A DNA stretch of 38,277 bases from Patescibacteria group bacterium (lineage in GTDB: Bacteria; Patescibacteriota; Minisyncoccia; Phycocordibacterales; SBAW01). Made by a program: the position numbers and the translations under genes. Each line of letters begins with the position of its first letter. Position 1 is the first letter of the stretch. Of the stretch, positions 12,101 to 19,591 are shown one piece after another. The stretch is from positions 1-38,277 of the forward strand of contig JAGWLV010000004.1 in NCBI GenBank assembly GCA_028864875.1. The letters are read 5' to 3'. Under the pieces are notes generated by a model. That model ran no database searches and was not told where the DNA came from. It saw nothing but the letters and a program-made list of their open reading frames with translations.

Positions 12101-12103
<3 letters not shown>
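12069..12103. terminator. Bidirectional terminator between convergent genes
   Basis: AACAAAACCCCCGCC-GAG-GCGGGGGTTTTGTT. Confidence 0.9.
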
Positions 12104-14227
<2,124 letters not shown>

Positions 14228-14352: not shown

Positions 14353-14970
14353 ATGCGATTTAAACCGCTCCTATGTGCGCTCGCTCTTCTGAGCGCGTTG
14401 TGCACATCCGCCAGTGCGGAAGTGTACTTCCGAGACCACGACATCAACGCTGTTCCCCACTCGATGTACATCGATAACGAGGGTGACAACGGTGGAAGGA
14501 TCTTGGAATATGTCTACTTCTTCACTCTGCTTGCGAAAGTGGGTGGCAACGTATATGTCGACGGGCCATGTGCCTCAGCATGTACACTCATGCTGGGTAT
14601 TGTTCCGCTCCGGAACATCCACTTGACTGGAAACGCACGGTTTATATTCCACGAGCCATACAGTGTCGGTTTATTTGGTTCTACCCAAACCGATCCTGTC
14701 GCGACCTTGCAGTTCACTCAGCTCTATCCTGAATGGGTACGTGGAGCGCTGCTGCGCAAAGGCGGACTCAACGGGGTGGATAACTACATCACCCTCGCGG
14801 GCCCGGAACTCAAGACCCTCTTCGCGTCAGCTGTGCGCAAAAAAGCATCCGGTAAAACGTACGAGCCGATTGAGCTCTTCGCAAGGACAAAAAAAGTTCT
14901 GCCGGCACATGTTCCGCTCCCCAAGCCCCGGCCCAAGGAGCGTCCGTTCAGCGCACATCAGCTCTATTGA
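14353..14970 (+). CDS. Secreted ClpP/crotonase-fold-like protein (putative periplasmic serine peptidase-like)
   Basis: Signal peptide MRFKPLLCALALLSALCTSASA; GGNVYVDGPCASACTLMLGIVPLRNIHLTGNARFIFHEPY resembles secreted ClpP-like proteins with CxSACT Ser motif and downstream His. Confidence 0.6.
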   Translation: MRFKPLLCALALLSALCTSASAEVYFRDHDINAVPHSMYIDNEGDNGGRILEYVYFFTLLAKVGGNVYVDGPCASACTLMLGIVPLRNIHLTGNARFIFHEPYSVGLFGSTQTDPVATLQFTQLYPEWVRGALLRKGGLNGVDNYITLAGPELKTLFASAVRKKASGKTYEPIELFARTKKVLPAHVPLPKPRPKERPFSAHQLY

Positions 14971-15019: not shown

Positions 15020-15056
15020 TATGGTGAAAAACGGCTGAAGATATTTGGAGTGTGCC
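15020..15056 (+). promoter_or_regulatory. Leader with CGGCTG motif, plus SD
   Basis: TATGGT(15020-15025)-6 nt-CGGCTG(15032-15037)...TTGGAG-6 nt-ATG(15057). Confidence 0.55.
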
Positions 15057-15308
15057 ATGCGAATCTCCCCCCTGCTCTCTTTGAGTGCCGGAGTTCTCGC
15101 TGCTCTGTATGCTGGTGATGCATCAGCTGAAAAGTACGCTGCATCCGCTCCGTGCGGCTCTGCGGAGTGCCTCGCGTACTACTGGGTGCCGATCAAACGA
15201 GTGACGGTGGCTTGGAATCCACCCCAGCGGGTGGCCCTACCTTGGCCCGGTGACAGGGTGACGCTCCCGCGGCCCGCCCCATATGCGATACGTAAACGCT
15301 CAAAATGA
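15057..15308 (+). CDS. Small secreted protein (83 aa)
   Basis: MRISPLLSLSAGVLAALYAGDASA signal peptide, short Pro-rich mature part; own promoter/SD and terminator. Confidence 0.6.
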   Translation: MRISPLLSLSAGVLAALYAGDASAEKYAASAPCGSAECLAYYWVPIKRVTVAWNPPQRVALPWPGDRVTLPRPAPYAIRKRSK

Positions 15309-15353: not shown

Positions 15354-17573
15354 TTAGCGTATCTCGAAGCCTTTTTGTTTGAGTGCCGCGGATACTTTTT
15401 CCATAACCGCGTTGACCTCGGCCTCGGTGAGCGTGCGCTCGAAGGATTGAAAGACAACGTGGTAGGCCACACTCACCCGTCCGGCTTTTTCGAACCGGTC
15501 AAATTGCGAGATTGTTTGCGCCCACTCCCCCGCTAGCGTTTGTATGTCCCTCGCTACGGCCGCCTCGTCGGTACCTGCGGGCACCCACATCGCAATGTCG
15601 CGGACGATGTACGGGAATTTTGAAAACGGTTTGTACTGCACGCCCTCCGGAGTCCGATATGATATATCATAACGCTCGCCCGCTACCGGTTTAAGTTCAT
15701 GCTCTTCTATTTTCCCTCCCTCGACAGCCGTGCCGAGCACCGTGCGCTCCCCTCCCCCTTTCCACACAGCGCCGACTTCAAAAAGCTTTATTTCTTTGAG
15801 CCCGAGGAGTTCTTTGGTGCGGACGTTGCGCCCGAGCGCCTCGACAAGTCCGGGTACAAGGCTCGTGCGCAGGTACGGGCGTTCGCCGCCCACTTTGTTG
15901 AGCACCTCGACCTCGCCCGCGTCGGCAAAGACCGCTGTATAAATTTCGCTGTAGCCTTGTGTAATAAGTTGTGCGCGAGCTTGCTGTGCCGCGGCGAACA
16001 TGGGGTTGATGGCCGGCGGTTGCGAAGCGGATGGCAGCGGCGTGCCTGGAATCTTTTCGTACCCCACCATACGCGCGACTTCCTCTATCAAATCTTCGGT
16101 TATACGCAGATCGAGCCTTTCAAACGGAATATCAATCACAAAGTGCGGAGTCTGCGCCTCCCACACACGCCGCCAACCCACGATAGTTTTAAAACTCGAG
16201 CTGTTTTTTATATCTTCAATAACTACACCTGACTTCGCTTTGGTGGCATGTATCACCTTCCCTCCGCCGAGATAGAGGCCCACATGGTCGACGCCCTGCG
16301 GCACCTTCGTGCCGCGCAAGTACTGCACGCTCTCGTAACGGATTTTACCTACGTCCGAGTTTGAAAAGACTAAATCCCCCGGCTGCGCGTCTTTCTCTTC
16401 TATCGGTTGTCCCCATACAAACTGATCGACCGATAGACTCGGCATCGCAATCCCCGCCTGCACGTAGAGGTAGTTGGTGAGTGATGAACAGGAAAATGTT
16501 TTAGGCGCGTCGGTGCGGATGCCGCTGTCATATTTATATGTTGCCCCGACCAAAGACGGTGCCGCCTCGACAACGTGCTGTGCCGGACTTTTGACTTGTT
16601 TGTACGCCCATCCGAAGCGCTTAAACACATCTTCTACATCGGCATCGCTCAAGGTGAGACCGAGTACGGAATTTATTTGCTGCGTTGAAACACCGACTTT
16701 GTACACCCAGTCGCTGCGCCCCGGGTATTTGTCGACAAAGCCCTCGAGAGTGCCGCCCGCGATTGAAAGAATGACATTGACCGCCTGTTGCATCGCATAG
16801 CCGCAGAGCTCCGGCGAAAGTTCCTGCTCGAAGCGCGTCGAGGCATCGGTGCGCAACTTGAGCGCCTGGGCCGCCTTGCGCACTACTGCGCCCGCAAAGT
16901 TCGCCGACTCGAGTACGATATCGGTCGTCGATTCGTCTATGGCCGCGGGCAAGCCACCCTTGACCCCCGCAATGCCGATGGGGGCGTCCCCTGCGGTGAT
17001 GACGAGCATGCTCGGTGAGAGTGTGTAGGACTTTTGGTCGAGCGCGACCATCGCCTCGCCTTGATGCGCGAGGCGCACGCCGAGCGCAAGCGAGCCGAGC
17101 TTTTTTGCATCAAACGCATGCATCGGCTGGCCGAGGTTGAACATAACCAGGTTCGTCGCATCAACAACGTTGTTTATGGGCCGCTGGCCTATAGCCTCCA
17201 GGCTCGCTTTAAGCCAGTCGGGGCTCGGGCCCACTTTGACCCCTTTGATGTACCCCGCGATGTAGCGACGGCAGAGCTCGGAGTCTGCAATTGCAACACT
17301 CACCCCTGTTGCCTGTTTTGAAAAATCTATTTTGTAGTTGAACGGGTCGTTTTCTTTATTCAGCGGCAATTGCAAAATCGCCGAGAGCTCTTTGGCTATG
17401 CCGCGGTGGCCGAGGCAATCGTGTCCGCGGTTGGGCGTCACTTTAATATCTATCACCTCGCCCTCGACCCCCTCGACTTCAAACGCGTGCTCGTTTATAG
17501 CGCGCGCGGTAGCCTCCACGCCGGGAAGCTTCCCATTCAAATAATTATTGAGCCACGGGTAATAGACTTTCAT
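15354..17573 (-). CDS. pheT: Phenylalanyl-tRNA synthetase beta subunit with inserted NlpC/P60 domain and no EMAP/OB tRNA-binding domain
   Basis: GEVIDIKVTPNRGHDCLGHRGIAKELSAI (B1), B3/B4 (QRPINNVVDATNLVMFNLGQPMHAFDAKK), split B5 (VSTQQINSVLGLTLSDADVEDVFKRFGW ... DIPFERLDLRITEDLIEEVARMVGYEKIP), catalytic-like region, FDX-ACB C-terminus. Start ATG at 17573. Confidence 0.93.
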   Translation of the reverse strand: MKVYYPWLNNYLNGKLPGVEATARAINEHAFEVEGVEGEVIDIKVTPNRGHDCLGHRGIAKELSAILQLPLNKENDPFNYKIDFSKQATGVSVAIADSELCRRYIAGYIKGVKVGPSPDWLKASLEAIGQRPINNVVDATNLVMFNLGQPMHAFDAKKLGSLALGVRLAHQGEAMVALDQKSYTLSPSMLVITAGDAPIGIAGVKGGLPAAIDESTTDIVLESANFAGAVVRKAAQALKLRTDASTRFEQELSPELCGYAMQQAVNVILSIAGGTLEGFVDKYPGRSDWVYKVGVSTQQINSVLGLTLSDADVEDVFKRFGWAYKQVKSPAQHVVEAAPSLVGATYKYDSGIRTDAPKTFSCSSLTNYLYVQAGIAMPSLSVDQFVWGQPIEEKDAQPGDLVFSNSDVGKIRYESVQYLRGTKVPQGVDHVGLYLGGGKVIHATKAKSGVVIEDIKNSSSFKTIVGWRRVWEAQTPHFVIDIPFERLDLRITEDLIEEVARMVGYEKIPGTPLPSASQPPAINPMFAAAQQARAQLITQGYSEIYTAVFADAGEVEVLNKVGGERPYLRTSLVPGLVEALGRNVRTKELLGLKEIKLFEVGAVWKGGGERTVLGTAVEGGKIEEHELKPVAGERYDISYRTPEGVQYKPFSKFPYIVRDIAMWVPAGTDEAAVARDIQTLAGEWAQTISQFDRFEKAGRVSVAYHVVFQSFERTLTEAEVNAVMEKVSAALKQKGFEIR
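16152..16589 (-). other. NlpC/P60 cysteine-peptidase domain nested inside pheT
   Basis: APSLVGATYKYDSG...TFSCSSLTNYLYVQAGIAMPSLSVDQFVWGQPIEEKDAQPGDLVFSNSD...GVDHVGLYLGGGKVIHATKAKSGVVIEDI. Cys362 (16488-16490), His430, His442 fit the Cys/His/polar triad. Confidence 0.9.
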
Positions 17574-17575
17574 TA

Positions 17576-18331
17576 CTAGAATTGATGTATGAAGCGCAGG
17601 TCGCCGCTGTGCATGAGGCGCACGTCGTCGATGCCCCACTTGAGCATCGCGAGCCGGTCGAGACCCATGCCGAAAGCCCACCCCCGGAAGCGCTGTGGGT
17701 CAACGCCGGAGTTGTTGAGCACGTTCGGGTGCACCATGCCCGCACCCATGATTTCGATCCACTTGTTGCGGAGCTTCTCCGGTGTGTTGTCTCCCGTGAG
17801 CCGCATGCTGACCTCAAGCCCCGGCTCGACAAAGGGGAAGTACGACGGGCGGAACTCAATTTCGACCGAGCCCTTAAAGAGCCGCTCAAAAAATTGCGTG
17901 AGCGTCCACTTGAGGTGCGCAAGCGTGATGTCCTCGCCCACCGCCAAGCCTTCGAGTTGATAGAACTCGGCCTCATGAGTCATGTCGGTCGCCTCGTTGC
18001 GGAACACTTTGCCCGCACAAATCATCCGGTAGGGCGGCGGGACGCCTTCCTTAATCTTCCCCTCCATGTAGCGGATCTGGGCGTTGCTCGTGTGCGTGCG
18101 CAATACGCCCTGGGTACCCTTGAGATAAAACGTGTCCTGCATGTCGCGCGCGGGGTGCTCTGCGGGGACGTTGAGTGCGTCGAAGTTGTACCACTCGGTC
18201 TCCAAAAGCGGCCCCTCGCCGAACTCGAACCCCAGGTCATAAAAAATAGCGTTGGCCTGTGCGATGAGCTGCGAGACGGGGTGGAGGTGGCCCGCGGGGG
18301 CACTTTGGCCTTCATTTAACGCACTTTTCAT
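17576..18331 (-). CDS. pheS: Phenylalanyl-tRNA synthetase alpha subunit (lacks N-terminal coiled coil)
   Basis: GHLHPVSQLIAQANAIFYDLGFEFGEGPLLETEWYNFDALNVPAEHPARDMQDTFYL, FEPLE-like SYFPFVEPGLEVS, GAGMVHPNVL, GWAFGMGLDRLAML. Confidence 0.95.
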   Translation of the reverse strand: MKSALNEGQSAPAGHLHPVSQLIAQANAIFYDLGFEFGEGPLLETEWYNFDALNVPAEHPARDMQDTFYLKGTQGVLRTHTSNAQIRYMEGKIKEGVPPPYRMICAGKVFRNEATDMTHEAEFYQLEGLAVGEDITLAHLKWTLTQFFERLFKGSVEIEFRPSYFPFVEPGLEVSMRLTGDNTPEKLRNKWIEIMGAGMVHPNVLNNSGVDPQRFRGWAFGMGLDRLAMLKWGIDDVRLMHSGDLRFIHQF

Positions 18332-18361: not shown

Positions 18362-19591
18362 ATGTATATCGGGACGCTCATCCTCTACGCGTGCCTTTTT
18401 TTGACCCTCTATTTTGAGGTGTTCCTCCTCCTGAGCTTTTTGGAGCGCCGCCCCGGCGTCAAAAATGCGCGTGCGCCGCGGCACTATCCGAGCGTTGCGA
18501 TGATTGTCCCGTGCTACAACGAAGAGCGCACGGTGGCCGGCACCATCGAATCGCTTTTGGCCCTTGAGTACCCTGCAGAGAAGCTCTCCATACTTGTGGT
18601 CAACGACGGGAGCTCGGACACCACGGGTGCGATAGCGCGCGGCTACGCCGCGCGCGACCCGCGCATCGTGTATATAGAAAAGGAAAACGGCGGCAAGTAC
18701 ACCGCGCTCAACGTGGGTATTGCGCACACACAAGCAGATATTGTTGGGTGTCTCGACGCAGACTCGTTTGTCGCGCCCGATGCCCTGCTTGAAGCTGTAA
18801 AAGTATTCGAAGACCCGACGGTTATGGCGATCACCCCCGCGATGAAAGTGAGTAAGCCTCACAGTATGTTAGAAGTCATGCAGGCGGTCGAGTACACCTT
18901 CGGCATCTTCCTCAAAAAGATGTTCGACAACCTCGCCGCCATCAACGTGCTCCCCGGGCCCTTCTCGCTCTACCGGCGCGAGGTCTTCGAGCGTATCGGC
19001 CCCTTCCGCCACGCCTACAATACCGAGGACATGGAGATAGCCTTCCGCATGCACCGCCATGGGCTCAAAATCGCCAACGCGCACACCGCTATTGTGTACA
19101 CAACGGTGCCGTGCACTATTCCCTCGCTCCTGCGCCAGCGCACCCGCTGGTCTCGGGGCTTTTTGGAAAATTCGCGCGACTACTACTACATGTACTTCAA
19201 CCCGCGCTACGGGCACTTCGGGGTGCTCGTGCTCCCGGTTGCACTCGTCGCCTTCTTTGCAGGACTATACTCGGCGGGCTTTATGCTCTACAAAGCTGTA
19301 GGCTACGTCGCCACACGGGTGACCGACGCTCTGGCAACCGGCATTCCTCCACACCTCCCTGCGGCGCACCTCGATTGGTACTATCTCAACACCGGCATGC
19401 TGACGTTCCTCATCATCACCGTGCTGTCGATGACGCTCGTTGCCATCCTCCTCGGCTCGCGCATCGCCGCAACGCGGCTCACACTCAAGTCGTTTTTCGC
19501 CTACTTTGCTTTCTTTGGGCTCCTTGCCCCGCTGTGGCTCGCCCGGGCGCTCTTTGGCGCCGTGCTTGCAACACAGCGCGTGTGGCGCTAG
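18362..19591 (+). CDS. Membrane glycosyltransferase family 2 (processive, hyaluronan/PNAG synthase-like)
   Basis: VAMIVPCYNEERTVAGTIESLL, VVNDGSSDTT, CLDADSF, TEDMEIAFRMH, RQRTRWSRGFLEN plus multiple TM helices. Confidence 0.9.
   Translation: MYIGTLILYACLFLTLYFEVFLLLSFLERRPGVKNARAPRHYPSVAMIVPCYNEERTVAGTIESLLALEYPAEKLSILVVNDGSSDTTGAIARGYAARDPRIVYIEKENGGKYTALNVGIAHTQADIVGCLDADSFVAPDALLEAVKVFEDPTVMAITPAMKVSKPHSMLEVMQAVEYTFGIFLKKMFDNLAAINVLPGPFSLYRREVFERIGPFRHAYNTEDMEIAFRMHRHGLKIANAHTAIVYTTVPCTIPSLLRQRTRWSRGFLENSRDYYYMYFNPRYGHFGVLVLPVALVAFFAGLYSAGFMLYKAVGYVATRVTDALATGIPPHLPAAHLDWYYLNTGMLTFLIITVLSMTLVAILLGSRIAATRLTLKSFFAYFAFFGLLAPLWLARALFGAVLATQRVWR

Follow-up and report, generated by a model that had tools for sequence, protein, structure and literature searches.

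The pheST locus

The window analysed here, i.e. the whole stretch of 38,277 nucleotides from contig JAGWLV010000004.1 of a Patescibacteria group bacterium, contains the genes for both subunits of phenylalanyl-tRNA synthetase (PheRS). The following features were assigned around pheT from open reading frames and their translations, Pfam matches and synteny:

12101..14209 (-), gyrB, a syntenic marker adjoining pheT, which also adjoins the free-standing B5-NlpC genes of relatives (Pfam, synteny)
15354..17573 (-), pheT, PheRS beta, 739 aa, one uninterrupted open reading frame with a nested NlpC/P60 domain (translation, Pfam)
15357..15623 (-), FDX-ACB anticodon-binding domain of PheT, aa 651-739 (PF03147, 6.9e-19)
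16755..17273 (-), B3/4 editing domain of PheT, aa 101-273 (Pfam B3_4, 7e-59)
17576..18331 (-), pheS, PheRS alpha subunit of 251 aa consisting of the class II core, immediately upstream of pheT (PF01409, 7.8e-89)
18362..19591 (+), family 2 glycosyltransferase, a syntenic marker on the opposite side of pheST (Pfam, synteny)

A search with the PheT protein itself returned this gene as the sole full match in the 0.59-Mb genome, i.e. pheT is a single-copy gene. A CLM domain is also recognized in the protein by Pfam. In an alignment with 2iy5_B, the B3/4 residues N141, H152, G203, E222 and A244 correspond to N250, H261, G315, E334 and A356 of the T. thermophilus protein; these five positions, which we take to be the editing site of PheRS, are intact. 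The NCBIfam model of bacterial PheT (TIGR00472, pheT_bact) scores 400.8 bits, slightly below the cut-off of 402.65; the match is broken by the insert described below. The N-terminal OB-fold (B2) region is unmatched, the alignment starting at T. thermophilus residue 152, and Pfam gave no match of the window PheS to the N-terminal coiled-coil (tRNA-binding) family. With these two parts missing, the window encodes a minimal PheRS, in which PheS consists of the catalytic core and PheT has no B2 OB-fold part. The synthetase part of PheT would nevertheless be expected to charge tRNA normally, because the gene is present in single copy, has B3/4, B5, CLM and anticodon-binding domains with intact editing residues and adjoins pheS.

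An NlpC/P60 domain within B5

An earlier note, made from the letters of this DNA alone, had claimed that a complete NlpC/P60 domain is nested in the B5 domain of PheT within a single open reading frame. This was borne out by the PF00877 match, AlphaFold modelling (AF2), Foldseek and alignment with unfused PheT proteins. In detail, the split domain and its insert comprise:

16590..16712 (-), N-terminal half of the split B5, about aa 288-328 (alignment with unfused PheT; AF2 E292-295, H297-304, H310-320, E324-327)
16152..16589 (-), NlpC/P60 insert, aa 329-474 (PF00877, 3.4e-16, 59.5 bits for the insert alone, cut-off 23)
16488..16490 (-), codon of the predicted catalytic Cys362, FSCSSL motif, with Ser for the usual Asp before Cys (Cys in 94/94 family sequences)
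16284..16286 (-), codon of the predicted catalytic His430, VDHVGLYLG motif (His in 94/94 family sequences)
16248..16250 (-), codon of the third triad residue His442, KVIHAT motif (His in 87/94; the rest Gln, Asn, Asp or Glu)
16050..16151 (-), C-terminal half of the split B5, about aa 475-508 (PF03484 positions 33-67 at aa 471-505; AF2 E477-481, H492-503)

When the full protein is searched, the NLPC_P60 match (PF00877) extends over aa 354-468 (3.7e-14, 53 bits, cut-off 23). Unfused relatives have a short turn at the same place of the alignment ('YKEE-HGT-FEV', compared with 'YKQV-(~145 aa)-HFVI' in the window), therefore the insert of about 145 aa replaces a beta-turn, namely that of the B5 beta-hairpin. 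The AlphaFold model of the whole window PheT, calculated with a 23-sequence alignment, has a mean pLDDT of 85.5 and block means of about 85-96 for the insert, at whose ends both B5 halves are folded. With this model, Foldseek found PheRS beta chains as well as NlpC/P60 structures; the structure closest to the insert is the C. difficile autolysin Acd24020 (7cfl, TMt 0.89-0.91). C362, H430 and H442, reported in the earlier note as an intact triad and numbered correctly there, fall in invariant columns of the same 23-sequence PheT alignment. By profile match, by the triad in register and by fold (AF2 and Foldseek), the insert belongs to the NlpC/P60 (C40) family.

The insert is close to the rest of the gene in base composition, with a GC content of 0.54 (0.57 and 0.56 in the remaining parts) and a GC3 of 0.61 (0.69 and 0.62). 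PheT is the only PF00877 match in the window genome. Pfam searches at E<=1 revealed no Hint or endonuclease, nuclease or integrase domain in the window PheT or its insert, and an intein or homing element was rejected on these grounds.

Conservation of the catalytic residues

The 94 sequences in which conservation was evaluated comprise 64 distinct PheTs with the fusion, two free-standing groups, namely 13 B5-NlpC proteins (class II) and 11 more remote, B5-like ones (class III), and 6 NlpC proteins of the plain type. All 94 have the Cys and the His, and the third residue is always polar (His in 87, Gln, Asn, Asp or Glu in 7). The S2-type Tyr is invariant in the fused and class II proteins. Asp is the usual residue before Cys in the family; Ser takes its place in the window and in the sister clade of its insert. 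In characterised DL-endopeptidases this Asp helps to bind the free amino end of the substrate, and because it is replaced by Ser the specificity of the window subgroup may differ.

The dN/dS values (omega) of the insert are mostly 0.04-0.22, a range like that of both halves of PheT, and give no sign of diversifying selection. In 81% of pairs, the insert has a higher pairwise identity than the C-terminal half of the protein. A decayed linker was rejected by the invariant Cys and His together with the low dN/dS; the earlier argument that an intact triad speaks against a structural remnant is thus strongly supported by conservation and purifying selection. The insert has the look of a functional catalytic domain and, as judged from these sequence patterns, would be active in the cell.

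Distribution of the fusion

In total, 398 genomes of the same order were surveyed with a model of the insert and its B5 flanks, and the matches were classified by open-frame length and flank coverage. Of the 96 genomes with matches, 73 have the PheT fusion, 13 a short gene for free-standing B5-NlpC and 10 a more distant protein; a PheT core match was found in 301 of the 398. In other classes of Patescibacteria, eight PheTs of 922-965 aa carry NlpC/P60 at the same B5 position, and a search of genome contigs with a closer sequence set (A3) identified a fused PheT on the complete chromosome CP011215.1. Named relatives with the fusion are Campbell-, Yonath-, Taylor-, Nomura-, Lloyd- and Zambryskibacteria. 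Mapping of the homologues, which had been proposed earlier, thus showed that the insert recurs at the same site and that its Cys and His are not randomly lost. An assembly chimera or chance was rejected, since 73 genomes of the order, members of other classes and CP011215.1 all have the fusion at the same site; the window PheT is one member of a widespread family and not an isolated oddity.

Within the genera g1, g7, g58 and g121 the presence of the fusion is patchy, and in the genus of the window (g1) about 1 of 34 species has it. Ten tested genomes of this genus with an insert-less PheT contained no NlpC/P60 (PF00877) at all, which indicates that the NlpC function is dispensable in those genomes; an obligatory housekeeping role of PF00877 in the genus was rejected for the same reason.

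Trees of the synthetase core and of the insert

Trees of the PheT core were built without the insert, at first with 107 rows and then, more carefully, with 35 rows; both are unrooted. In the 107-row tree every basal lineage has the fusion and the window core is nested in an unfused clade; the 35-row tree agrees. Gain and loss are not fully separable here, because a root was not inferred. In the insert tree, the window joins a clade made up of inserts of families f6 and f71 and of class II (support 100/95). Grouping the window core with the relatives of its insert was rejected (AU p=2e-6), as was grouping the window insert with the inserts of the nearest fused cores (AU p=0.001; L005 alone p=0.025). 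As the two trees conflict, the domain in the window lineage came separately from the synthetase, into the homologous site. Further domain swaps are likely but not proven, since a single clade of family f6 inserts and L168 was not rejected (AU p=0.09).

Plain NlpC/P60 proteins of about 140-170 aa without B5 are found in related orders (L136-L141). They are a possible source of the insert, and a signal peptide was not evident in them when judged by eye. Phage matches to the unit were ordinary NlpC proteins, none of which covered 80% of the query; a phage or endolysin origin of the whole unit was rejected for this reason.

Free-standing B5-NlpC genes and replacement of the synthetase

The free-standing B5-NlpC genes found in 13 genomes of the order are open reading frames of 191-254 aa, in which the B5 halves surround NlpC. 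The joined flanks of class II match the B5 profile with a probability of 97% (E=4.7e-11). For the class III flanks the values are 64% and E=6.6e-5, and 20 column shuffles reached at most 3%. The AF2 model of the free-standing protein of L122 has a pLDDT of 92.5. In the insert tree, the origin of class II is repeated, with at least five label changes on well-supported branches.

Ten of the 13 genomes have no PheT core match, and all ten possess a full-length single-chain PheRS. This mitochondrial-like enzyme of about 380 aa combines a class II core with FDX-ACB and is without the B3/4 editing domain. In these ten genomes B5-NlpC adjoins the single-chain PheRS together with gyrB and usually the glycosyltransferase, which is the place of pheS-pheT in the window. 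Both genes lie on one strand in families f51 and f16, almost or actually overlapping, and are divergent in family f31. As the gene order differs between f51/f16 and f31, our data suggest that pheST was replaced at least twice separately, with B5-NlpC kept each time. Because it was kept as a separate gene where the synthetase had been replaced, the hydrolase probably has a job of its own, separate from charging. Most of the genomes checked that have a single-chain PheRS are without B5-NlpC, and in the family f71 genomes and in class III the free-standing gene does not adjoin PheRS.

Several additional observations were made on these genomes. The PheT core match is missing in 97 of the 398 genomes of the order, and most of those tested have a single-chain PheRS of about 380 aa (L079:5170-6315, L083:7660-8802 and others), while a few yield only weaker or partial matches to it. 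The best NCBIfam match of the single-chain PheRS is 'PheS-related mystery ligase SrmL', below the cut-off. Class III proteins (L090:2706-3365, L091:2495-3103, L142:3051-3647), with the start motif YRAVGNRCAV and NlpC nested in B5-like flanks, occur in several classes and can coexist with a fused PheT (G049). Genome G137 (L088, L125), whose record is titled Alphaproteobacteria, groups with the order and is probably mislabelled; it carries a B5-NlpC gene and only a weak PheT match (2e-7).

A C39-like partner gene and the cell-wall neighbourhood

Immediately downstream of pheT, and on its strand, 26 of the 56 fused loci with enough flank encode a C39-like peptidase of the papain fold (PF13529), with Q, C and H conserved. 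The gene is missing at this place from all 41 unfused loci (Fisher p=4e-8). Contrasts within the genera g58, g121 and g7 point in the same direction; phylogenetically independent pairs gave 3 to 0 (p=0.25), an underpowered comparison with only about three informative pairs. A C39-like gene also follows the free-standing B5-NlpC in six loci, and is located elsewhere in the genome in 4 of 4 fused genomes checked from other classes. The partner is not obligatory, since no C39 match was found in the genome of the window. At the position of the relatives' C39-like gene, the window has two small open reading frames with leader-like N termini (14353-14970 and 15045-15308, both +), neither of which has a Pfam match.

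In three related loci of one clade (L114:9529-13209, L116:9470-12641, L120:10259-15070) an operon pheS-pheT(NlpC)-C39-murC-murD is found, with a YvcK-like gene also in between in L120. MurE is present in the window genome.

Proposed function of the B5-NlpC unit

We consider it fairly probable that the window PheT is a two-function protein, i.e. a synthetase and at the same time an active cytosolic NlpC/P60 thiol hydrolase whose job is separate from aminoacylation. With Cys362, His430 and His442 it would hydrolyse an amide bond or an acyl bond of similar kind. B5 and NlpC would form one autonomous unit, with B5 acting as a folding scaffold of the hydrolase and perhaps as a docking surface. That the unit would function separately from tRNA charging is suggested because its free-standing gene outlasts replacement of pheST and because it moves between PheT backbones. 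The unit would be located in the cytosol, and its substrate may be a small D,L- or gamma-linked peptide, sometimes processed jointly with the neighbouring C39-like peptidase. A peptidoglycan-derived peptide is our first guess, based on the DL-endopeptidases as nearest structures, the presence of MurE and the linkage to murC and murD in one clade; it is the weakest step of the proposal and we regard it as doubtful.

Of the four functions considered in the earlier note (moonlighting cytosolic amidase or peptidase, recycled structural domain, toxin or regulatory activity, accessory editing), the moonlighting hydrolase agrees best with the data, given that genomes without PheT have kept the B5-NlpC unit. 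Accessory editing is weakened because the B3/4 residues are intact and unfused relatives do without the insert.

Alternatively, B5-NlpC could be a mobile conflict or passenger module, either forming with the C39-like protein a two-peptidase cassette for defence or competition, or hitchhiking in an essential gene and often gained and lost. The patchy presence within four genera, the fact that the window domain was transferred, as were probably some others, and the co-occurrence with the C39-like gene would be in line with this. However, PADLOC assigned the PheT, free-standing B5-NlpC and C39-like proteins to 0 families, the insert contains no nuclease or integrase, and the phage proteins found were ordinary NlpC with incomplete coverage. 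In addition, every basal lineage of the PheT tree has the fusion, which points to an old, vertically inherited trait with losses as well, and the low dN/dS values give no hint of diversifying selection. Taken together, such a module seems unlikely. A known anti-phage defence system was rejected by the PADLOC result.

Another explanation is that NlpC/P60 acts on the synthetase's own chemistry, as a quality-control or resistance domain which removes wrong amino acids or D-amino acids from tRNA, or breaks down an inhibitor or an analogue of aminoacyl-adenylate. The domain is after all physically part of PheRS, and most of the PheT-less genomes with the free-standing form encode it beside a single-chain PheRS, in several cases with overlapping start and stop. 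As the single-chain enzyme has no B3/4, a hydrolase acting in trans could help there. Yet most of the single-chain PheRS genomes checked manage without B5-NlpC, as do the unfused relatives without the insert, the f71 and class III genes are not neighbours of PheRS, and in fused PheTs, which keep their B3/4 editing residues, the insert would be redundant for editing. We know of no NlpC/P60 enzyme that deacylates tRNA, and consider this explanation distinctly improbable. Replacement of the editing domain was rejected, the B3/4 editing residues being intact.

A structural or regulatory, non-catalytic domain that tunes PheRS by ligand binding or dimerisation can hardly be right, even though non-catalytic NlpC/P60 proteins exist (RipD, among the structural matches), since all 94 sequences, divergent as they are, have kept Cys and His, which is not expected of a domain for binding only, and the unit persists without PheT.

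Returning to the two-function protein, a broader proposal can be made, which we consider quite possible but put forward tentatively. In B5-NlpC, Patescibacteria may possess a cytosolic enzyme module not described before, which is autonomous and can be transferred, and which has PheRS beta as its usual carrier and a C39-like partner in many lineages. It would link tRNA charging to an unrelated hydrolysis, probably of cell-wall peptides, and would be cut free and kept when the carrier is replaced.

If so, an essential and universal translation enzyme would, throughout a large part of one bacterial radiation, carry an unrelated, apparently active hydrolase of the cell-wall type. The genomes in which the synthetase was swapped and the hydrolase kept are natural cases that separate the role of the domain from tRNA charging, and make the question testable. 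They may offer a first way to study by experiment what B5, a poorly understood domain, does outside translation, and may shed light on how bacteria with minimal genomes combine functions and on how uncultured Patescibacteria handle peptides and peptidoglycan.

Comparison with known systems

Searches of open-access full texts (subscription papers and preprints were outside the scope) yielded no account of this fusion, in agreement with the earlier note. What the present analysis adds to that note is the existence of free-standing forms, a C39-like partner gene and the transfer at the domain level. As far as found, NlpC/P60 enzymes and synthetases with extra domains are each known, and it is their combination, autonomy and movement that are new.

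With the bacterial PheT proteins described by TIGR00472, the window PheT shares B3/4, B5, CLM and FDX-ACB, the editing residues and the neighbouring pheS. It differs from them in that its B5 hairpin is split by an enzyme domain and its B2 region is unmatched.

With the NlpC/P60 DL-endopeptidases (MEROPS C40), such as 7cfl, the insert has in common the fold (Foldseek TM up to 0.91 to the target), the Cys-His-polar triad, the conserved Tyr of the PY motif and usually the DCS motif. In contrast to these enzymes, it resides inside a cytosolic tRNA synthetase subunit or on a B5-only scaffold, has a family-specific stretch ending in GTKVPEGVDH before the catalytic His and, in the window subgroup, has Ser in place of Asp.

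Aminoacyl-tRNA synthetases with inserted or appended catalytic domains are known (CP1, B3/4), and the known inserted hydrolases edit the product of their own synthetase. B5-NlpC resembles such editing domains as an extra hydrolase inserted in a synthetase, but belongs to a peptidoglycan-hydrolase family, outlives the loss of the synthetase subunit and moves separately.

Finally, YkfC of B. subtilis is a cytosolic endopeptidase of muropeptide recycling. NlpC/P60 chemistry in the cytosol is likewise predicted for B5-NlpC; YkfC differs in having SH3b domains and in standing outside the translation machinery.
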